64,000 nucleotides of DNA, taken from the NCBI RefSeq assembly GCF_004103735.1, contig NZ_CP035281.1, positions 124,001 through 188,000 on the forward strand. The letters run 5' to 3'. Of the stretch, positions 1 to 8,953 are shown in pieces (within the stretch, counting starts at the first letter, position 1; every line of letters starts with the position of its first letter). The stretch comes from Aminipila luticellarii (GTDB lineage: Bacteria; Bacillota; Clostridia; Peptostreptococcales; Anaerovoracaceae). The translations under genes were made by a program, and so were the position numbers. The notes beneath the pieces were generated by a model that made no database searches, was not told the origin of the DNA, and worked only from the letters and a program-made list of their open reading frames with translations.

Positions 1-504
1 ATTTTAAGGACCATTGCAGGGGATGGATTTTTTGAAGGTGCCAATGCCATGTGGGTTGACAGGCATACCTGTGTGCTTTCCACAGGCAGCAGGTGCAATA
101 AAAACGGATTTGAACAGGTGTCCTATGAGTTAAAGCGAATGGGCGTAGAAGTATATCCCATGCAGCAGCCCTATAGCAATATCCATATTGATGGCTTGAT
201 GAATCCGGCAAGTAATGATATGGTATTAGTACATGCTTCACAAGTTCCGTACGACATATTGGATATGCTGAAACGCAAAGGATACAAGATTTTGGAAGCC
301 CCATCTCAAACGGAAGTACGAGAAACCTTCGGGTGTAATTTTGTAGCACTGGAGCCGGGCAATATTGTCATGCCGGAAGGCAATCCGAGAACACAGGAAC
401 TGCTGGAAAGGAATGGGATCCGGGTTACTACGGTAAATATTTCAGAGATCATGAAAGGGAAAGGGGCTCTGCATTGTATCACGGCATATCTTAAAAGGGG
501 ATAA
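1..504 (+). CDS. Amidinotransferase/arginine deiminase-like protein, C-terminal part (runs off left edge)
   Basis: The frame is open from base 1, so the N-terminus lies outside the window; about 167 codons remain. It belongs to the guanidino-group modifying superfamily (arginine deiminase, dimethylarginine dimethylaminohydrolase, amidinotransferase). Seen directly: a GFFEGANAMW segment, the catalytic-His segment NIHIDGLMN, and a C-terminal ALHCITAYLKRG carrying the likely nucleophile Cys. It is a clear paralogue of the complete protein at 2145-3092, sharing the ELKRMGV, HASQVPYD and LKRKG blocks. The family hydrolyses or transfers guanidino groups through a covalent thiouronium intermediate; the substrate here is not known. 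A sigma-54 activator starts 42 bases downstream, so the gene probably belongs to the same catabolic cluster. Confidence 0.85.
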   Translation: MLRTIAGDGFFEGANAMWVDRHTCVLSTGSRCNKNGFEQVSYELKRMGVEVYPMQQPYSNIHIDGLMNPASNDMVLVHASQVPYDILDMLKRKGYKILEAPSQTEVRETFGCNFVALEPGNIVMPEGNPRTQELLERNGIRVTTVNISEIMKGKGALHCITAYLKRG

Positions 505-546: not shown

Positions 547-1962
547 ATGGATATGGATATTTCAGAGAGGAAAGAAATGCTTAGAAGATATGTTGAACAG
601 ATATTGAGTGTATATAATTACATAGACGGCATCATGGTTACAGATCGGAATGGATATATTGAGTATTATTCTAATTTTAGGCCTGATGTAAATCATCTGA
701 AAGAAAAAGATGTTCTGCATAAACATGTCTTAGAAGTATACCCGGCTTTAACCGAGGAGAGCAGCAGTATCATGCGCGTCCTTAAAACCGGAAAACCCAT
801 AGCCAATGAATATCAGGATCTGGTGACCTACAAGGGGCAGAGTATTCGTGCAGTAAACGTTACGCTGCCTATAAAAGAAGACAATAAAATCATAGGGGCG
901 GTAGATGTATCCAGATACATTGATCTCCCCTATGAAAGGCAGGATATATCCATATCGATAAAAGATAATGTAATAGCTAAAAACCTATATGTTACGGACG
1001 ATATAATCACCAATTCGCACAACATGATGCAGATAAAAAAGCGGATTCCCATGGTTGCCGGTACGGATTCTTCGGTACTGATCTATGGAGAGACCGGCAC
1101 CGGAAAGGAACTGGTTGCCCAATCAATTCATACCTGCAGCCGGCGAAGCAATAAAAAGTTCATTTCACAGAATTGTGCCGCCATCCCCGGCAATCTGCTG
1201 GAAAGCATATTATTTGGTACGACCAAGGGCAGTTATACAGGAGCCGAAAACAAGCCGGGATTGTTTGAAATAGCCAACGGAGGAACCTTATTCCTGGATG
1301 AAATCAACTCCATGGAATTGAGCGTTCAACCGAAATTGCTTAAGGCCATAGAAGAGAAACAAGTTACTCGTTTAGGTGGGTTTGAACCCATTAAGACAGA
1401 TATTAAGATTATTTCAGCGATTAATGAAAGTCCGCAAAAATGCCTGGAAGAAAACAGGCTTCGAGAGGATTTATTTTACCGGTTGAGCGTAGTACAAATA
1501 AATATTCCTCCTCTAAGGGAAAGAAGAGAAGATTTATTTTTTATGACATCGCATTTTATCGGACAATATAATCAGCTCATGCATCGTGATATTCTTGGAA
1601 TTGATGAACAAGTGGAGGCTATATTTAGGAAATATTCGTGGCCGGGCAACGTCCGAGAACTTAAAAATATCATTGAAGGAGCGTTCAATGTTGCTTCCTC
1701 CCGGTTTATTCAGCGAAAGGATTTACCGGAATACCTAAATGCCCGCTCGGGAGGAACCCCTGCTTTATCAACAGCTTTGGAGGAATTTCCTTTAATAGAG
1801 GAGGATTATTCTCTGGAGAAAGCCATGGCACAATATGAAAAAAGAATTATAATCGCGGCGATAAATTCCTCAAACAGTTTGGTGGAAGCTTCAAAAAAAT
1901 TGGGGATTACAAAGCAGGCTCTGAATTACAAAATTAAAAAATATAATATTAAAAATAGCTAG
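547..1962 (+). CDS. Sigma-54-dependent transcriptional activator (RocR-like: PAS, AAA+, Fis-type HTH)
   Basis: A 471-residue bacterial enhancer-binding protein. A PAS-like sensor occupies about residues 15-125. The AAA+ sigma-54 interaction domain follows at about 155-385, with Walker A GETGTGKE at 181-188, the sigma-54-contacting loop GSYTGA at 228-233 (the usual GAFTGA with F to Y and A to S), and Walker B FLDE at 249-252. A Fis-type helix-turn-helix (ASKKLGITKQALNYKIKK) closes the protein. This is the architecture of RocR, which controls arginine catabolism in Bacillus. It sits between two guanidino-enzyme genes and just upstream of a consensus -24/-12 promoter, so control of the flanking catabolic genes is a strong inference. 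The start has weak Shine-Dalgarno support; an ATG two codons later is equally possible. Confidence 0.93.
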   Translation: MDMDISERKEMLRRYVEQILSVYNYIDGIMVTDRNGYIEYYSNFRPDVNHLKEKDVLHKHVLEVYPALTEESSSIMRVLKTGKPIANEYQDLVTYKGQSIRAVNVTLPIKEDNKIIGAVDVSRYIDLPYERQDISISIKDNVIAKNLYVTDDIITNSHNMMQIKKRIPMVAGTDSSVLIYGETGTGKELVAQSIHTCSRRSNKKFISQNCAAIPGNLLESILFGTTKGSYTGAENKPGLFEIANGGTLFLDEINSMELSVQPKLLKAIEEKQVTRLGGFEPIKTDIKIISAINESPQKCLEENRLREDLFYRLSVVQINIPPLRERREDLFFMTSHFIGQYNQLMHRDILGIDEQVEAIFRKYSWPGNVRELKNIIEGAFNVASSRFIQRKDLPEYLNARSGGTPALSTALEEFPLIEEDYSLEKAMAQYEKRIIIAAINSSNSLVEASKKLGITKQALNYKIKKYNIKNS

Positions 1963-2000
1963 TAAAAAGAACTTTACCATTGGGGTGAAGTTCTTTTTAC
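1962..2000 (+). terminator. Rho-independent terminator after the sigma-54 activator
   Basis: A perfect 13-bp stem (GTAAAAAGAACTT and its complement) with a 13-base loop begins at the last base of the activator's stop codon. It is followed by a T-rich stretch, and separates the regulator from the promoter it probably controls. Confidence 0.8.
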
Positions 2001-2069
2001 TTAGTAAATATTTTTTTACCACTTTTCCTTTTTTAGATTCCGTTTAACCGGATTTCATCAAAAATTATT

Positions 2070-2085
2070 TGGCATTATTATTGCA
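2070..2085 (+). promoter_or_regulatory. Sigma-54 (-24/-12) promoter of the guanidino catabolism operon
   Basis: TGGCATTATTATTGCA matches the sigma-54 consensus TGGCAC-N5-TTGCW. GG is at 2071-2072 and GC at 2083-2084 with correct spacing. The predicted transcript starts near 2096, about 50 bases before the ATG at 2145. The sigma-54 activator gene lies immediately upstream. I did not identify a definite upstream activator site. Confidence 0.88.
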
Positions 2086-2144
2086 ATACTTAATAATAAA
2101 ACATTTTACTAATAAATCATTTTCAGGATTAAGGAGGAGAAAGA

Positions 2145-3092
2145 ATGAGCGAAGATAAAGTAAAAGACATTGATGCGCTTCCTGGCGAGCGATGGTTTCC
2201 GAAAGAGACGACCCTGATAGAGGATATGAAAAGCCTTTGGGGAGATTGGGGAGTATGCTCAGAAGTGGAACCCCTTAAGGCGGCATTGATGCGCAGACCC
2301 GGAAAGGAAATCGAAAATTTTGATTGGGCGGCAGCCAGATTTAAGGCATCTGTTTCCCCAGAAAAAATCAGAGCACAGCATGATGCTTTGGCTGATATTT
2401 ACAGAGCCCACGGTGTGGAAGTGTATTATGTTGAAGAGGCCAGAGAGGACAGACCAAATGCTATTTTCTGCAGAGATTTGATCTTCATGACTCCGGAAGG
2501 CGCCATCGTGACAAGACCCGCTATGGAAGCCAGAAGAGGGGAAGAGCGATATGTTGCTAAAAAGCTGGCAGACATAGGAGTTCCCATTATCCGGACCGTA
2601 TGCGGGGGGGCTACCTTTGAAGGAGCAATGGGGCTGTGGATCGACAGACATACGGTTGTTTTAGCCTCGGGGGTACGAACCAACCGAGAGGGATATGAAA
2701 TGGTGGAATCTGAATTAAAGCGAATGGGTGTGACGGATATTCTCCACATGCAGATTCCTTATGGCCACGCACATATTGACGGGCTGCTAAATATGGTCAG
2801 TGAAGACGTGGCCATGATTCATGCCTCACAGGTTCCGTATGATGTTTGTAACGCCTTGAAAAGGAAGGGTATTAAGTTACTGGAGTGTCCGTCTCGCGTG
2901 GAGGCTAAGGAAGGGCTGGCTATTAATTTTGTAGCCATAAAACCGGGGCAAATCGTTATGGCCGCAGGAAATCCCAGATCTCAGGAATTACTTGAAAAGA
3001 ATGGCATTGAGGTTATTCCGGTGGAATTTGATGAAGTGCTTAAGGGTTACGGCTCCATCCATTGTTGCACCGGATTTTTAAAACGTGGTTAA
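2145..3092 (+). CDS. Amidinotransferase/arginine deiminase-like protein (complete)
   Basis: A full-length 315-residue member of the guanidino-modifying enzyme superfamily, with AAGGAGGAG 9 bases before the ATG. Visible blocks are CRDLIFMTP and TRPAMEARRGEE (substrate-binding half), GATFEGAMGLW, the catalytic-His segment HAHIDGLLN, and IHCCTGFLKRG at the C-terminus with the nucleophilic Cys. These are the features of arginine deiminase, dimethylargininase and amidinotransferase, which act on guanidino carbons. It is the first gene behind the sigma-54 promoter and is followed closely by an M28-fold hydrolase and an APC permease, so uptake and breakdown of a guanidino compound is inferred. Whether it hydrolyses or transfers the amidino group cannot be decided. 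It is paralogous to the partial gene at 1-504. Confidence 0.88.
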   Translation: MSEDKVKDIDALPGERWFPKETTLIEDMKSLWGDWGVCSEVEPLKAALMRRPGKEIENFDWAAARFKASVSPEKIRAQHDALADIYRAHGVEVYYVEEAREDRPNAIFCRDLIFMTPEGAIVTRPAMEARRGEERYVAKKLADIGVPIIRTVCGGATFEGAMGLWIDRHTVVLASGVRTNREGYEMVESELKRMGVTDILHMQIPYGHAHIDGLLNMVSEDVAMIHASQVPYDVCNALKRKGIKLLECPSRVEAKEGLAINFVAIKPGQIVMAAGNPRSQELLEKNGIEVIPVEFDEVLKGYGSIHCCTGFLKRG

Positions 3093-3115
3093 AGCCTTGT
3101 GAAGGAGGATCAGAA

Positions 3116-4864
3116 ATGAGCTTGTATGAAAGGTTAAAGGAAGAAATTTCATTGGATGAACTATATGAAAATATGTCCTATTTAGTGGAGGAGGTTGGCG
3201 AAAGACTTTCCGGAACAGAAGAAATGAGAAAAGCAACAGCGTATATCTGTTCAAAATTAACAGAGTACGGAGTGGATGCTCATATTGACCACTTCCCCAT
3301 GTATCAGAGCTATCCGGGCGAGGCGGCCTTAAAGGTTATGGAGCCTTGTACTAAAGAAATAAAGGCCAGACCGGTGTGTCACATTCAATCCACCGCAGAA
3401 GAGGGGATTGAAGGGGAATTAATGTATGTGGGATCCGGCAGTTATAAAGATTATGAAGGAAAGGATGCAAAAGGAAAGATTATTCTTACCGACATGAACT
3501 GGAGTCCGGGGAGACCTGAGAAAGCAAGAATTGCCTGGGAGCTTGGTGCAAAAGCACTGATTATTATGAATTGGGGAAGAGCAGAAGAGGATCTGATTCA
3601 AATGGGCGCCGTAAAAACACAATGGGGAAATCCAACACCGGATACGGAAAAAGATATTGTTGAGCTGCCGGTCATAAGTATTTCCAGACGTGACGGGGAA
3701 TATTTGGAAGCCCTTTGCCAAAAAGGAAAAACAACGGTTTGGTTAAAGGCAAATGCTTCAAGAGAATGGATAACGGCAGATCAGCCTGTAGGAATTGTCA
3801 GGGGAAAACAGAGCAAGGGTCAGTATGTGTTAGTGGGCAGCCATGTAGATGCATGGGGAAAGTCAGCCATTTGTAATGCTTCGGGAGATTCCTTGAATTT
3901 GGAATTGGCAAGAGTATTTCAAAAACATTGTGCTGAGCTGAAGCGGGATGTTGTATTTGTCTTCTGGGATGGACATGAGATTGCTGAAGGAGGCGGCTCA
4001 ACCTGGTACTGTGACAGCCACTGGGCTGAAATGAATGAAGGCTGTGTAGCGTATATTAATGTGGATAATCTGGCTATTAAGGGAACCACAATACCCGGAG
4101 TAGAAGGGCAGCCAGAAATGAAGCAGATGCTTATGGAAGCCATCAAAACCATATGGGATACAGAAGGCGTGTGGCATCAGGCCTATAAGGGCGGCGGAGA
4201 TTCTTCGTTCTTTGGTGTGGGTGTTCCGTACATATCCTTCGCAACCGAATATACAGAGGAGAAACTGAAAGAATTGAACTATGCATTTTACAGTCCATGG
4301 CTGCACAGCGACTCCGATACGATTGATAAGCTGGATAGAGAACTGCTGAAAAAGCATAGTGAGTTTTTTGCGTATATAACAGAGAAATTAGTAAACGCAC
4401 CGCTTGTATTGTATGATATGAAAGCTCTTGCGCAGGATGTCAAATACCAATGGGAGGCTATTTTGACGGAAGCAGGCAGAGCCACAGAAATGATTTTGGA
4501 TACGACGCCCATAGTAGATCAATATGTTGCCATGCTTGAAAAGCTGGATCTGGTTAAGATTTCTCTGGGAAATGATGAGACTAAGGCAGCTCTATATAAC
4601 AAGCTAGTCATACTATGTGAACGGCAAACGGCTATGTTCAGAGGCTATTCCGGTCGTTACGGCCAGGATGGATGCTGTGCCTTACAAACGGAAAACCCTA
4701 TTCCGGCATTGGATAAGGCCATAAAAAAATATAATGAAGCCCCTTTAGGTTCTCACGAATACTATTTGTGGGAAACACAGATTTTGCGGGTGAGGAACAT
4801 GGTATATGATGCGATGAATTATTCAATTCGCTATGTAGAGTTAGGCCTTTCTGCAATGGATTAG
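3116..4864 (+). CDS. M28-family (glutamate carboxypeptidase II-like) metallohydrolase with altered metal ligands
   Basis: 582 residues from the ATG preceded by GAAGGAGGA at 3101-3109; an upstream in-frame start at 3062 would overlap the preceding gene and is not favoured. It has an M28 peptidase core with an inserted PA-type domain (about residues 90-220). Conserved metal-site segments can be aligned: GSHVDAW (H243), the NASG anchor, WDGHE (H287, E288), INVDN (D317) and PWLHSDSDT (H397). In normal M28 enzymes the residue before NASG is the bridging Asp, and the pair in WDGEE is Glu-Glu with the first as general base. Here these are Cys253 and His287. The fold is recognised but ordinary dizinc aminopeptidase chemistry is doubtful. 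It lies between the deiminase-like gene and a permease, probably in one operon, and no signal peptide is visible, so it is probably cytoplasmic. Confidence 0.82.
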   Translation: MSLYERLKEEISLDELYENMSYLVEEVGERLSGTEEMRKATAYICSKLTEYGVDAHIDHFPMYQSYPGEAALKVMEPCTKEIKARPVCHIQSTAEEGIEGELMYVGSGSYKDYEGKDAKGKIILTDMNWSPGRPEKARIAWELGAKALIIMNWGRAEEDLIQMGAVKTQWGNPTPDTEKDIVELPVISISRRDGEYLEALCQKGKTTVWLKANASREWITADQPVGIVRGKQSKGQYVLVGSHVDAWGKSAICNASGDSLNLELARVFQKHCAELKRDVVFVFWDGHEIAEGGGSTWYCDSHWAEMNEGCVAYINVDNLAIKGTTIPGVEGQPEMKQMLMEAIKTIWDTEGVWHQAYKGGGDSSFFGVGVPYISFATEYTEEKLKELNYAFYSPWLHSDSDTIDKLDRELLKKHSEFFAYITEKLVNAPLVLYDMKALAQDVKYQWEAILTEAGRATEMILDTTPIVDQYVAMLEKLDLVKISLGNDETKAALYNKLVILCERQTAMFRGYSGRYGQDGCCALQTENPIPALDKAIKKYNEAPLGSHEYYLWETQILRVRNMVYDAMNYSIRYVELGLSAMD

Positions 4865-4909
4865 AGACTATTCGTTAAAGCTTTTCTGTTTGATAAGGAG
4901 GAATTATCA

Positions 4910-6319
4910 ATGGATAAAAATAATAACGGAGAAATTGGGCTTAAGCGTGAGATGGGATTTTGGGCCGCCATTGCACTGGTTATCGGAAATACAATTGGCT
5001 CTGGAATTTTTCTGCTGCCTCAAAATTTGGCGGCTATTTCTACACCGGCCATTTCGATTGCAGGATTTATTTTAACCGCTGCCGGAGCAGTATTAATTGC
5101 TATCAGTCTTTCAAACATGGCGTGTGCATTCCCTAAATCCGGAAGCTGCGTTGTGTATACGCATGAGGCCTTTGGGGACTTTGCAGCTTTTATTGTGGGA
5201 TGGGTCTTTTGGCTTTGCCAGCCTTGTGGTGTTGCGGCCATCATAACCGCTGCCGTCAGGTATCTCAGCTATTTGTTCCCAATACTGGGAACCAGTAACC
5301 TTGCAGCATTGATTACTTCAAGCTTGATTTTATGGATATTGGTAGTCCTAAATATTAAAGGAGTAAAAGAAGCCAGTGCATTTCAAATTATTACAGTTAT
5401 TTTAAAATTAATCCCTATTGCATTATTTATAATTTTGGGGGCTGCTCATTTTGATCCTTCTATTGCTCATAGCGTAAATCCGGAGCTGGAAGGAGGAGTA
5501 TCCTCTCAACTGCCGGCAACTATCGCGATTACCATGTGGCTATTTGTAGGGATTGAAAGCTCCACCATTACCGCCGGAGAAATTAAAGATCCGGAAAAGA
5601 ACATTAAAAGGAGCACGATTTACGGAACATTGTTTGTCATCCTTCTTTATATTATCATTACGATTTTGGCCGTTGGAATTATGCCGCAAAAGGAGCTTGC
5701 AAACTCTAATGCGCCTGTGGCAGAAATGATTGAGATGATGACAGGCGGCCATTTAGGCAGTATTTTTATAGCGATTTTTATCGTCATTTCATGTGTGGGA
5801 TGCGCCAATGGAATTACGCTGACCGGAGCTAGAATCTCTTATGCAATTGCTATGGATAATGTTTTCCCTAAGTTTTTAGCAAGAGTAAATCCTCGCTATC
5901 ATACACCGGATACATCCCTTATCGTATTCGGCATTATTGGGAATCTATTGCTCATATCAAACTACACAAAGGGACTAAATAAAGCCTATATTTTCGCAGC
6001 CTTGCTTACAACAATGGCCTATATGATTGCGTATGCAGCAACAGCAGCTGCTGAGATTGCATTACTGAAAAATCAGGATGGAGATATTACGGTGGGCAGT
6101 TATATTAAAAAATCGATTTTACCGCTGCTGGCACTGGCGTATATCATATATGCAAGCTACGGAACGGGCGCCGAATCGGTTATGTGGGGATTCCTGCTCA
6201 TTATGGCGGGCATACCATTCTACATTTACAATAAGATAAAAAACACAGGAAGTATAAAGTCAAACAATGCGCCAGTTTACGCAGAAACAGAGGAGATCCT
6301 TTCCGATATAACAGAATAA
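4910..6319 (+). CDS. APC-superfamily amino acid permease/antiporter
   Basis: 469 residues with about twelve hydrophobic segments. The N-terminal unwound helix carries the APC hallmark GNTIGSGIF at about residues 26-34, as in the arginine/agmatine and arginine/ornithine antiporters. AAGGAGG lies 8 bases before the ATG. It ends the sigma-54-linked cluster, 45 bases after the M28-like gene, so it probably imports the guanidino substrate or exchanges it for a product such as ornithine or citrulline. The family is certain; the substrate is inferred only from neighbours. Confidence 0.9.
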   Translation: MDKNNNGEIGLKREMGFWAAIALVIGNTIGSGIFLLPQNLAAISTPAISIAGFILTAAGAVLIAISLSNMACAFPKSGSCVVYTHEAFGDFAAFIVGWVFWLCQPCGVAAIITAAVRYLSYLFPILGTSNLAALITSSLILWILVVLNIKGVKEASAFQIITVILKLIPIALFIILGAAHFDPSIAHSVNPELEGGVSSQLPATIAITMWLFVGIESSTITAGEIKDPEKNIKRSTIYGTLFVILLYIIITILAVGIMPQKELANSNAPVAEMIEMMTGGHLGSIFIAIFIVISCVGCANGITLTGARISYAIAMDNVFPKFLARVNPRYHTPDTSLIVFGIIGNLLLISNYTKGLNKAYIFAALLTTMAYMIAYAATAAAEIALLKNQDGDITVGSYIKKSILPLLALAYIIYASYGTGAESVMWGFLLIMAGIPFYIYNKIKNTGSIKSNNAPVYAETEEILSDITE

Positions 6320-6329
6320 GAAATTTTAT

Positions 6330-6374
6330 AGCAAGGGGCTTGTACGCTAAATGCTGTGCAGGCTCTTTTGCTTT
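6330..6374 (+). terminator. Possible terminator after the permease
   Basis: AGCAAGGGGCTTGTAC can pair, with several G-U pairs, with GTGCAGGCTCTTTTGCT downstream of the permease stop codon. The T tract is weak. Confidence 0.4.
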
Positions 6375-6379
6375 ATCAT

Positions 6380-6431
6380 AAAAAGAACCGCTATTTCTAG
6401 CGGTTCCCCAATTGGTATCCCCGGTGGGAAT
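6380..6431. repeat. Distal direct repeat (att-like) copying the 3' end of tRNA-Arg and its terminator
   Basis: These 52 bases are identical to 8166-8217, which contain the last 19 nt of tRNA-Arg(CCT), including CCA, plus the downstream hairpin. Beyond 6431 similarity fades (TTGCACC against TCGAACC), so only the tRNA tail is copied. This is the usual footprint of site-specific integration into a tRNA 3' end, with the intact tRNA at the other boundary. Confidence 0.85.
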
Positions 6432-6508
6432 TGCACCTAAGAATGCCATTGCTTCAACTTTTCTGGTATTTCATTACTGCTTATCATAACTTGTCACGAT
6501 CTCACATC

Positions 6509-6910
6509 CTAATCATTAATTTGCCACGCACCTTTTCGTGTTGAGCCAATTCGTGTGATTTTTCCAGTTTCACGGAGTTCCTTGCTAATACGACTGATTT
6601 TTCTGGTACTTAATCCAGTTTGGTTACTCAGCTCATTCACAGTAATAGACGGAACATACTGCATCAGTTTTACCAGCTTGTCTTCATCCGATAGAATACC
6701 GCCATTTATACCGCCACTTTTATTGCTACTGGCGGTATTCTCCAAAGTCATTTCGTCAGAAAACGGAAATATTGCCTTAATAAAATGGTCTGTAATACGG
6801 AAAATATCTTTGTCATAGACTTTGAGTATTCGGCTCATACCAGAACCAAGTTGTTCTACAAGGCCTACAACCTTGAAGATCCCCTCAACCTTCCTTAAAA
6901 GGGTTGACTT
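6509..6910 (-). pseudogene. C-terminal fragment of an AlbA_2/Schlafen-like ATP-binding regulator
   Basis: The minus strand encodes GLVEQLGSGMSRILKVYD, the hallmark segment of the C-terminal half of AlbA_2 (Schlafen-type AAA_4) putative DNA-binding regulators. A linker and a winged-HTH-like tail follow (TVNELSNQTGLSTRKISRI), ending GAWQIND at 6509. The AlbA_2 N-terminal domain and most of the central part are missing. Upstream of about codon KVEGIF the similarity stops and the frame runs into the end of the fic gene. I read it as a truncated remnant fused to unrelated sequence by deletion inside the islet, not as a functional gene. Confidence 0.6.
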
Positions 6911-6917
6911 GGTCGGT

Positions 6918-6955
6918 AACTTAGTCGCTTTTCTTGATCGGAAAGCGACTAAGTT
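6918..6955 (+). terminator. Perfect 14-bp hairpin overlapping the end of fic
   Basis: AACTTAGTCGCTTT and its exact complement are separated by 10 bases and followed by a run of T on the plus strand. The fic stop codon, which reads on the minus strand, is inside the stem. It would terminate plus-strand transcripts best; its role for fic is unclear. Confidence 0.5.
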
Positions 6956-7946
6956 GTTTTTTTCTGTACTTTTGATTCCGGCTGTTCGGCTTGTCAGGTA
7001 TTGCCATCTCAATAAGTTCCTGTTCCAGTGCTGGATTCAGATAGTTCTTCCTGAATGTCGGTTTGTGTGAAAGTCTAAGCCGCTCCATGAGTTCCACAGT
7101 TGAAAGTTCTTCATCACCCAGCGCATTCAAAAGTTTTCTAACCGAAACAGAAATCTTATCCGTATTTGTATTGGCTGCACTTCCAACAACTGATGTTCCA
7201 CTCAGTGTATCCAAAATTATTTTAAGCATAAGCTCCACAAAAGTACAGCTGTCTGCTTGTTTATCAGATTTACCGAGAGCATCGTAATATTCCTGCTGTC
7301 TTGTCCGGATCAGCTCTTCTATCGGAAGCCAGTAGAAAAGTTCATTCCATTTGCCAAGAAGCATACTATGCCACATTCTTCCCATGCGGCCATTCCCATC
7401 GGCGAAAGGATGAATAAACTCAAATTCATAATGAAAAACAGCACTCTTGATTAGGGGATGCATTTCGGATGCCTTATACCAGTCAAACAGGTCTTGAATC
7501 TGTTCTGGCACGAATGCTGCCGGAGGTGCCATATGGACAACCACATCTCCGTCAAACACGCCCACTCCACCAGAGCGAAATTTTCCGTTTTCCAATATCA
7601 AACTATTCATCATCATTTTGTGAGCCTTCAACAGAGCCCTTACAGACGCAGGATTTAGCGTAAGCATCATCTCATAAGTCTCGTATGCGTTCTGAACCTC
7701 CCTGATCTCATTTGGATTGCCCAAAATACGTTTCCCATCAAGAATCGCAGTCACCTGTTCCAGTGACAGGGAATTGTGCTCAATAGCAAGAGAAGAATGA
7801 ATCGTCTTTATTCTATTTTCACGCCTTAGGTGCGGATTCAAGCTTCCATGAGAAAGCACGGTGATACGACCGATCTGTTCACAGATTGCGGCAACCAGAT
7901 TTATTATTCTATCCGTCATATGGAACGGTGGTTTATACTCGCTCAT
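6921..7946 (-). CDS. Fic-domain protein (probable AMPylase/nucleotidyltransferase)
   Basis: 341 residues from ATG at 7946; a GTG four codons upstream (7958) with a GGAG 6 bases before it is an alternative start. The catalytic loop is intact: HPFADGNGRMGR (HxFx(D/E)GNGRxxR). An N-terminal SLAIEHNSL matches the class II autoinhibitory helix pattern (S/T)xxxE(G/N), with H in place of the G/N right after E but N next. Fic enzymes transfer AMP or other nucleotide moieties to Ser/Thr/Tyr side chains of target proteins; the target here is unknown. The C-terminal part resembles a winged-helix segment, common in stand-alone bacterial Fic proteins. It is carried on the tRNA-Arg islet. Confidence 0.9.
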   Translation of the reverse strand: MSEYKPPFHMTDRIINLVAAICEQIGRITVLSHGSLNPHLRRENRIKTIHSSLAIEHNSLSLEQVTAILDGKRILGNPNEIREVQNAYETYEMMLTLNPASVRALLKAHKMMMNSLILENGKFRSGGVGVFDGDVVVHMAPPAAFVPEQIQDLFDWYKASEMHPLIKSAVFHYEFEFIHPFADGNGRMGRMWHSMLLGKWNELFYWLPIEELIRTRQQEYYDALGKSDKQADSCTFVELMLKIILDTLSGTSVVGSAANTNTDKISVSVRKLLNALGDEELSTVELMERLRLSHKPTFRKNYLNPALEQELIEMAIPDKPNSRNQKYRKKQLSRFPIKKSD

Positions 7947-8165
7947 GTTTGAATACACCTCTTTCTCCTTTTATTATGTGGAAAGTGATACCTGGATATA
8001 CTGCACCCTTTTGTACAATTTTTACTTTACCCTGTGTAATCATAATAACATTTTTTCATGCCATCGTCACCTATATAAATAGGCAATGCCCGCTCTGTCT
8101 AATCAGAAGAGTAACTGCCAGAGAAAATGATGTAACCAATCAAACCTGGCAATCCCAACGCATAG

Positions 8166-8217
8166 AAAAAGAACCGCTATTTCTAGCGGTTCCCCAATTG
8201 GTATCCCCGGTGGGAAT
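8166..8217. repeat. Proximal direct repeat (att-like) at the 3' end of tRNA-Arg
   Basis: Identical over 52 bases to 6380-6431. It spans the last 19 nt of the tRNA gene plus the downstream hairpin. See the islet entry. Confidence 0.85.
8171..8192 (-). terminator. tRNA-Arg terminator hairpin
   Basis: GAACCGCT...AGCGGTTC hairpin just downstream (minus strand) of the tRNA CCA, followed by T residues on that strand. It is duplicated at 6385-6406 within the att-like repeat. Confidence 0.7.
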
Positions 8218-8273
8218 CGAACCCACAATTAAGCTTTAGGAGAGCTTTGGTATATCCATTTACCTACGGAGAC
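8199..8273 (-). tRNA. tRNA-Arg (anticodon CCT)
   Basis: A 75-nt cloverleaf folds by hand on the minus strand. Acceptor GTCTCCG pairs with CGGGGAT; the D stem is GGTA/TACC; anticodon stem AAGCT/AGCTT encloses loop CTCCTAA. The T arm is GTGGG-TTCGATT-CCCAC and CCA is encoded. The anticodon CCT is at 8238-8240 and reads AGG. It is the integration site of the adjacent fic islet. Confidence 0.95.
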
Positions 8274-8407
8274 ATAACAAAATTTTCATTATAGTCTATA
8301 GTAGCATATTTATCTGAGACTTTCAAGAGGTTACTTGAAAGTCCCCCTTGGGAGTGCTATGATATACGCATAACATAAGATGATGAAGCGGAAAGGACGG
8401 AGGAAAA

Positions 8408-8953
8408 ATGACAAAGAATGTACTTGTGATAACTGGGAGTCCAAGAAACGGAGGGAACAGCGATTTACTTGCAGATGCTTTTATTGAAGGGGCACAGTCT
8501 GCCGGGCATACGGTAACGAAATGGAAAGCTGCCGAAAAAAATATTGACGGATGTCATGCCTGTGAGACTTGTTTCAGCACGGGGAAGGCATGCAGCTATG
8601 ATGATGACTTTAATGAATTGGCACCTCTTTTAGCCAAGGCGGATGTGCTGGTGCTGGCAACACCTGTTTACTGGTTCAGCTATCCTTCCAAAATAAAGGC
8701 CGCGATTGATAAGATGTATTCTTTTTATATGGGACAAAAACCTTTAAAAATAAAGGAATCGGTGTTATTGACCTGCGCTGAGATGGACGATATGTCGGTT
8801 TTCGACGGCGTGAAAGCTACGTATGATCATATCGTGGACTTTTTACAGTGGACAGACAGAGGATGTCTTGCTGTACCAGCCGTCCAGCATGTGGGCGATG
8901 TGGTTAAGACAACGGCATTACATAAAGCCAGGGCCTTGGGAAATGAGTTATAA
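8408..8953 (+). CDS. Flavodoxin-fold NAD(P)H-dependent FMN oxidoreductase
   Basis: 181 residues with ACGGAGG 5 bases before the ATG. The N-terminal TGSPRNGGNSDLLADAF is the FMN phosphate-binding loop of the NADPH-dependent FMN reductase / iron-sulfur flavoprotein family. CHACETCFSTGKAC supplies a Cys-rich segment like that of two-Cys flavin reductases of anaerobes, and TPVYWFSYPSKIKAAIDK is the second flavin-contact block. No [4Fe-4S] pattern typical of the longer iron-sulfur flavoproteins is complete. A general anaerobic redox role is likely. It is monocistronic, with a long inverted repeat after the stop codon. Confidence 0.88.
   Translation: MTKNVLVITGSPRNGGNSDLLADAFIEGAQSAGHTVTKWKAAEKNIDGCHACETCFSTGKACSYDDDFNELAPLLAKADVLVLATPVYWFSYPSKIKAAIDKMYSFYMGQKPLKIKESVLLTCAEMDDMSVFDGVKATYDHIVDFLQWTDRGCLAVPAVQHVGDVVKTTALHKARALGNEL

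Follow-up and report, generated by a model that had tools for sequence, protein, structure and literature searches.

The window analysed here, a 64,000-nucleotide stretch of the genome of Aminipila luticellarii, opens with a run of forward-strand genes in which a gene for an enzyme of the M28 fold lies between a gene for an ADI/DDAH-like deiminase and one for an amino-acid permease, with a second deiminase gene and a gene for a sigma-54-dependent activator upstream. The features are as follows:

1–504, forward strand: C-terminal part of an ADI/DDAH-like deiminase (deiminase A, 315 aa in full; its gene begins before the window and is complete in L024, 5558–6505)
547–1962, forward strand: sigma-54-dependent activator, PrdR-like (323 bits, below the model cut-off of 795)
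2070–2085, forward strand: sigma-54 promoter-like site TGGCAT-N5-TTGCA, TGGCATTATTATTGCA, preceding the genes for deiminase B, the M28 enzyme and the permease
2145–3092, forward strand: ADI/DDAH-like deiminase (deiminase B, 315 aa) in which the superfamily's Asp, Glu, His-x-Asp and Cys blocks are retained
3116–4864, forward strand: gene for the His-type M28-fold enzyme, an intact open reading frame of 582 aa (M28 catalytic domain; PA-type insert, residues 99–197; C-terminal helical domain, residues about 430–582)
3872–3874, forward strand: codon TGT of Cys253, at the bridging-Asp position
3974–3976, forward strand: codon CAT of His287, at the general-base Glu position
4910–6319, forward strand: APC amino-acid permease (312 bits against a cut-off of 409 for a basic amino acid/polyamine antiporter model)

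Beyond the permease gene, at 6509–7958 of the reverse strand, are two overlapping open reading frames, apparently a single Fic-type gene split near 6921–7012 (motif HPFADGNGR, by eye).

The protein encoded by the M28 gene, for which an alternative start (TTG at 3062) is possible upstream, belongs to family M28 both by its Pfam score against Peptidase_M28 (PF04389; 64 bits over residues 227–420, gathering cut-off 21.3) and by the M28 fold of its predicted model, and it carries a PA domain at residues 99–197 (Pfam; 31.3 bits, cut-off 23.9). PF04389 is matched at E 0.01 by all 29 rows of our alignment A2 and the PA domain by 25 of them, while NCBIfam holds no family that scores above its cut-off for the window protein, the sole match being LapA (18.8 bits, cut-off 600). 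In the PDB, the aminopeptidase YwaD is closest in sequence (E 7.4e-18); next come 2ek8, NAALADL1, 3iib, GCPIII and GCPII. The AlphaFold2 model, built from eight sequences, has a mean pLDDT of 81.7 and a pTM of 0.84, with loops near the site (residues 289–291, 359–361 and 390–394) under pLDDT 50. For this predicted model, Foldseek ranks human GCPIII and GCPII first (query TM about 0.78; E 3.2e-32 for GCPIII), GCPII entries with urea-based inhibitors being among the best structural matches, and VIA-align gives Z scores of 30–35 with about 545 residues aligned to TfR1 and GCPII (model residues 1 to about 580); its highest Z, 35.5, is with YwaD (6hc6; 3.8 Å over 389 residues). Since some 545 residues align with GCPII and the transferrin receptor, the last 150 residues correspond to the helical domain of the GCPII/TfR group, and the predicted model has the three-domain build of that group. 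Structure prediction had been among the checks proposed in the first-pass annotation of this DNA; the predicted model has the M28 fold and adds the GCPII-type build. The enzyme is probably cytosolic and homodimeric.

M28 enzymes bind two zinc ions through His, Asp and Glu residues and use a catalytic Glu, according to one account (PMC3426542). Alignment of the window protein to M28 enzymes places Cys253 at the position of the bridging Asp and His287 at that of the general-base Glu, and shows H243, D245, E288, D317 and H397 to be retained, so that of the set expected in a dizinc peptidase the protein lacks the bridging Asp and the general base and has the remaining His, Glu, Asp and His ligands (H243, E288, D317 and H397). 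Immediately before the NASG anchor's conserved Asn stands Cys253; His287 stands three residues past the Trp of WDGHE. Both stretches align without gaps to NAALADL1 (4twe), and alignment to bacterial M28 enzymes leaves the NASG anchor itself ungapped and opens a small gap between it and HxD. The two substitutions, the numbering of the four retained ligands and the departure from a standard dizinc site had all been read from the letters of the window in the first-pass annotation, and the alignment bears them out; the comparison of close homologues that it had suggested finds C253 and H287 invariant in all eight sequences (the window protein and seven homologues, 47–72% identical).

Two further features of the site were considered and rejected. 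Selenocysteine at position 253 is ruled out by the TGT or TGC codons in the six genes that were read. GCPII binds the substrate carboxylate through R210; a counterpart, R133, fits in the clade of the window protein but is replaced by Pro, Thr or other residues elsewhere in the family.

The substitutions extend well beyond the close homologues. A tree of 43 rows, in which 38 family members (window included) were set against five ordinary M28 enzymes, separates the two sets with a support of 100/99, and position 287 is His in 38/38 of the former and Glu in 5/5 of the latter. Left out were L057, L066, L075 and q, which are copies of other rows, and the cut L032 fragment; the near-copies L067/L068 and L014/L016 were kept. 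The placing of L011, L058, L030_20070 (incomplete at the edge of its contig stretch) and L074, all on long branches, is uncertain, and nine rows have an unusual composition. By the residues at 253, 287 and 288, the 38 rows fall into three site types, D-H-S (n = 17), D-H-E (n = 5) and C-H-E (n = 16), position 253 being Asp in 22 rows and Cys in 16, and position 288 being Ser instead of the ligand Glu in 17. The other ligand positions are kept almost throughout (H243 and H397 in 38/38, D317 in 37/38, D245 in 35/38), and beyond the site W170, G171, P173, G194, W247, N254, W284, S295, D362, S364 and G369 are invariant in all 38 rows, a set that can serve as a signature of the family. In L061 and L062, HxC replaces HxD (position 245) beside the first metal His and position 253 remains Asp, a Cys thus coming into the site at a place other than 253.

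The D-H-S rows form one group (support 100/97), and the C-H-E and D-H-E rows are intermixed, each type needing three changes on the tree, of which two and three, respectively, are forced by well-supported branches. All 16 C-H-E rows come from Bacillota, from the class or the phylum of the window, and the D-H-S and D-H-E rows include Proteobacteria and haloarchaea. As Glu to His is found in 38/38 rows and Asp to Cys in part of them only, the sequences indicate that the change to His marks the whole branch and came first, with the change to Cys appearing later, here in Bacillota only, and by more than one change or with a reversal. The two substitutions set side by side in the first-pass annotation are each real, and are not one event. 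The C-H-E row L020 is labelled Candidatus Sumerlaeota, yet its 12539-base contig has the same size and genes as the L057 contig of G414, a genome placed in the window's phylum with 7% contamination listed; the name or the binning of the metagenome-assembled genome of L020 looks wrong.

Counting the window's own genome in each case, matches were found in 12/391 genomes of its class at E 1e-10 (with ordinary M28 enzymes among them), in 10/398 of its phylum at 1e-25 and in 11/197 of its family at 1e-25. Three other genomes of the genus gave no match at 1e-25, so the distribution of the gene is patchy. A match is also present in 58 plasmid records, from which 17 stretches were taken, non-randomly, among the matches listed; site types were read for eight of them, and L121–L129 were used for their neighbours only. 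Where the plasmid homologues have product names, these are M28 family peptidase or metallopeptidase, an annotation which may mislead.

The arrangement around the gene is likewise conserved. The first-pass annotation had remarked on the place of the gene between a deiminase-like gene and a permease, and this layout does look like an operon. In all nine distinct close loci (the window, L014, L016–L019, L023, L067 and L068) the M28 gene follows an ADI/DDAH-like gene, with a second such gene nearby and a sigma-54 activator gene adjacent. The carrier encoded downstream is the APC permease in the window and an NhaC-type protein, of a single cluster, in the eight other loci (Pfam PF03553 for the L014 copy). 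The promoter-like site at 2070–2085 scores 13.5 of 14 and was equalled in 0/500 mononucleotide shuffles of its gap; a second, perfect site in the same genome precedes deiminase A. Such a site stands before the lead deiminase gene of the unit in seven of the nine loci, with 0/500 shuffles matching in each. In L067 and L068, where the start was called too far upstream, 437 and 449 of 500 shuffles scored as well in the region before the called start, and the site is seen by pattern alone once the region is extended or the start corrected, which brings the count to 9/9. The His-type M28 branch is conserved, is wider than the first-pass annotation had noted, has a Cys-bearing part in clostridia and is found, in the window, in a regulated operon of catabolic type.

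The RD, FEG, HID and HC blocks of the window deiminases align with the canonical ADI of the same genome, which places them in the ADI/DDAH superfamily; we take these blocks to contain the catalytic Asp, Glu, His-x-Asp and Cys. The residue before the Cys of the catalytic block is His in the window deiminases as against Arg in the canonical enzyme, which makes arginine doubtful as their substrate. Six further sites, in this genome and two relatives, have ADI-like paralogues with no M28 gene of this kind beside them; the partners of these paralogues are sigma-54 activators together with NhaC-type or peptide-type carriers or M20-like genes (ABC genes by eye). One second unit in the window's own genome (C1:2511500–2524500, at 3035–8763 of that stretch) comprises a sigma-54 activator, an ADI-like gene 28–30% identical to the window pair, an M20-like gene and an APC-type permease, the deiminase there being paired with a different hydrolase. 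A role in defence was considered and set aside, PADLOC having found no match for the M28 protein or deiminase B.

Plain arginine or citrulline catabolism was also rejected as the role of the operon. Genes for ADI, OTC and carbamate kinase lie side by side at 1,116,474–1,119,629 of the genome, which also has two ornithine-pathway ortB genes, so that the operon is unlikely to be its main arginine route and plain arginine is unlikely to be the substrate. A link to citrulline or ornithine is hinted at in one genome only, G179, where OrtA, OrtB, Ord (over the cut-off) and an alanine-racemase-type gene lie about 6–10 kb from one copy of the enzyme. G179 has two C-H-E copies (L021 and L022) whose starts are about 11 kb apart, each accompanied by RidA-type, SDR-type and branched-chain-type ABC genes (SDR and ABC by eye). 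In another genome, G930 (C1:3211417–3215885 and 503135–504033), the OTC and carbamate kinase models match in split neighbouring pieces, as if the genes had been broken by frameshifts or sequence errors.

The explanation that we tentatively favour, with a little less than even confidence, is that the window protein is a metal-dependent C–N hydrolase of the His-type M28 branch, acting in a sigma-54-controlled operon for a guanidino compound. As a hypothesis for its chemistry, H243, Cys253 (for the bridging Asp), E288, D317 and H397 would hold one or two metal ions, with His287 acting as general base in place of the usual Glu or as an additional metal ligand. The permease would bring in a guanidino compound that is not arginine, whose guanidine the ADI/DDAH-like enzymes would convert to a urea; the M28 enzyme would then cleave the resulting ureido bond or a neighbouring amide bond, releasing an amino acid. 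The composition and conservation of the site, the predicted fold, the gene order and the promoter-like sites are what the analysis shows; enzyme activity, metal binding by Cys253 and the order of these steps we infer, and the substrate class is our guess, a compound of a ureido or guanidino pathway being possible if somewhat doubtful. In favour of this explanation, the window protein keeps every M28 ligand position except 253, and the fold binds ureas, as the GCPII-inhibitor entries attest. Against it, an M20 enzyme, a possible carbamoylase, is already encoded in several loci including L069; ADI-like genes also occur without the M28 enzyme; and E288 is Ser in 17/38 rows, from which it follows that His287 might be a ligand in the D-H-S relatives.

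The wider family offers a further view of the possible substrates. Neighbours within 6 kb were counted in 46 family loci and 20 control loci of ordinary M28 enzymes (Fisher test, self-matches left out), with neighbour references taken from the family loci; the search used tblastn on DNA because simple gene calling misframed GC-rich loci such as L028. An EE-type motif was found by pattern in 18/20 controls (doubtful in L101 and L102, and none in L118 and L120). Enriched near the family are Asp/Glu/hydantoin-type racemases (14/46 vs 0/20, p 0.003; seven of these no more than 150 bp away from the aligned M28 region), peptide-type ABC binding proteins (17/46 vs 1/20, p 0.006), M20 hydrolases (16/46 vs 2/20, p 0.033) and ADI-like genes (8/46 vs 0/20, p 0.045), these p values being optimistic given loci of common descent, controls drawn from a single phylum and the testing of several neighbour classes. 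Differences short of significance, each vs 0/20, were seen for ATC hydrolase (4/46, p 0.23; confirmed by Pfam PF14196 in three loci), hydantoinase A and B (2/46 and 1/46, p 0.5–0.7), membrane dipeptidase (4/46), quinone-reductase-type genes (6/46) and RidA (2/46). A racemase is annotated in 6/16 annotated plasmid stretches; racemases from six plasmid stretches matched no curated hydantoin-racemase model, their weak matches being to arylmalonate decarboxylase and EutA. A urea or an N-carbamoyl group is produced or handled by guanidine deiminases, by the pairing of ATC hydrolase and racemase and by that of hydantoinase and racemase, and we infer that the M28 enzyme would hydrolyse such a group.

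The peptide-type binding proteins and dipeptidases near the relatives could point to unusual peptides or N-acyl amino acids no less than to ureas. The window protein might accordingly be an exopeptidase or N-acyl-amino-acid hydrolase with a His base, acting on unusual peptides (such as peptidyl- or acyl-arginine or -citrulline, D-peptides or isopeptides), with the deiminases working before or after it. The GCPII-type build, the peptide ABC binding proteins (17/46), membrane dipeptidases (4/46) and M20 enzymes (16/46) of the family loci and the peptidase or metallopeptidase names of the plasmid homologues all speak for this alternative; yet the general base of the peptidases is absent in 38/38 rows, the carrier just downstream is a single-component one in 9/9 close loci rather than a peptide ABC system, and peptide cleavage alone leaves the ATC hydrolase and deiminase neighbours unexplained, although racemases could fit. 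We regard it as rather unlikely, while giving it serious weight.

The hydantoinase-type, racemase and ATC-hydrolase genes near some relatives handle ring compounds, and glutaminyl cyclase is a mononuclear non-peptidase on the M28 fold, so that a lyase or cyclase closing or opening a cyclic amidine, hydantoin or lactam ring can also be envisaged. Glutaminyl cyclase, however, keeps its Glu, and the neighbours in the window imply no cyclic substrate, which leaves this alternative improbable.

The question whether Cys253 is a ligand or a nucleophile is addressed by a pair of sister loci (support 100/100), L069, which is D-H-E with HxE instead of HxD, and L070, which is C-H-E. Their enzymes are 64% identical over 573 positions, and both operons contain a GntR-type gene, the M28 gene, an Asp/Glu/hydantoin-racemase-type gene, an ATC hydrolase gene (PF14196; 75.9 bits in L069 and 83.5 in L070, cut-off 28.1) and a gene of cluster c45 for a membrane-protein-like product (no Pfam match for the L069 copy), with an extra M20 gene in L069. 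The first-pass annotation had held that homologues with the ordinary Asp and Glu in the same context would reduce the substitutions to an isolated change; the Asp does occur in so closely matching an operon, and the ordinary Glu is found in 0/38 family rows. Just upstream of the L070 operon (1798–4806) are cytosine-deaminase-like and biuret-amidohydrolase-like genes, both below their model cut-offs (92.8 bits vs 370 for the latter), which is urea-type chemistry again.

Asp and Cys at position 253 would thus seem able to do the same job, and since the exchange leaves the neighbour genes unchanged, it suggests that Cys253 is a metal ligand rather than a nucleophile, an argument that, coming from one sister pair, is suggestive and not proof. 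We consider it probable that the enzyme is an active metal hydrolase with Cys as a ligand. A thiol hydrolase or transferase on the M28 scaffold, with Cys253 as the nucleophile and His287 as its base, would account for the presence of Cys and His, both invariant in the window's clade, at the former catalytic centre; since Asp is incapable of thiol catalysis, its presence in L069 among unchanged neighbours and in 22/38 rows disfavours this alternative, as do the ligands H243, E288, D317 and H397 that remain in the window protein, and we hold it to be very unlikely. A non-catalytic, transferrin-receptor-like pseudoenzyme serving as a binding or structural partner is suggested by the loss of the general base, by Ser at 288 in 17/38 rows and by the transferrin receptor, a non-enzyme, among the best structural matches, but is highly improbable given that H243 and H397 (38/38), D317 (37/38), D245 (35/38) and the new, invariant His persist from haloarchaea to Clostridia in genes of which the window's own adjoins catabolic enzymes.

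Returning to the favoured metal-dependent C–N hydrolase, its most specific form would be a ureide hydrolase on the M28 fold, with a His-based metal centre that is thiolate-bridged in one clostridial part of the family and hydrolyses ureido or guanidine-derived C–N bonds, and with a natural Asp/Cys exchange at the bridging-ligand position within one operon type; in this full form the proposal is unlikely. The His-type M28 family has apparently not been described so far: a literature search, confined to open-licence papers and hence weak as evidence of absence, found, among the papers listed, none on an M28 enzyme with a His/Cys site or with such a context. In co-catalytic metallopeptidases of the M28 fold, the bridging Asp and the Glu base are generally regarded as indispensable. 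A family from haloarchaea to Clostridia without this Glu in every row, and partly without the Asp, would show the scaffold moving to other chemistry; the conserved sigma-54 operon offers direct access to the substrate by way of growth or transcription, and could bring to light a pathway, so far unrecognised, by which anaerobes use guanidino compounds.

Among known systems, the M20 N-carbamoyl-amino-acid hydrolases of the AtcC/HyuC type resemble the proposed M28 chemistry and share the kinds of neighbours (racemase, hydantoinase, ATC hydrolase), but belong to a different family and keep their Glu base. Glutaminyl cyclase has an altered metal site on the M28 fold, with changes that differ from Cys253/His287. 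The bacterial PA-domain aminopeptidases (YwaD/BSAP 6hc6, 2ek8 and 3iib), of which YwaD is the nearest by PDB sequence and by VIA-align Z, keep Asp-Glu-Glu, and their matches stop near residue 440, without the long C-terminal helical domain. GCPII, GCPIII and NAALADL1 (M28, PSMA group) share with the window enzyme the domain order (M28 catalytic, PA insert, C-terminal helical) and the frame of ligand positions at 14–19% identity; in contrast to them, the window protein has no signal or membrane anchor evident by eye, and has His287 for the first Glu of the pair and Cys253 for the bridging Asp.
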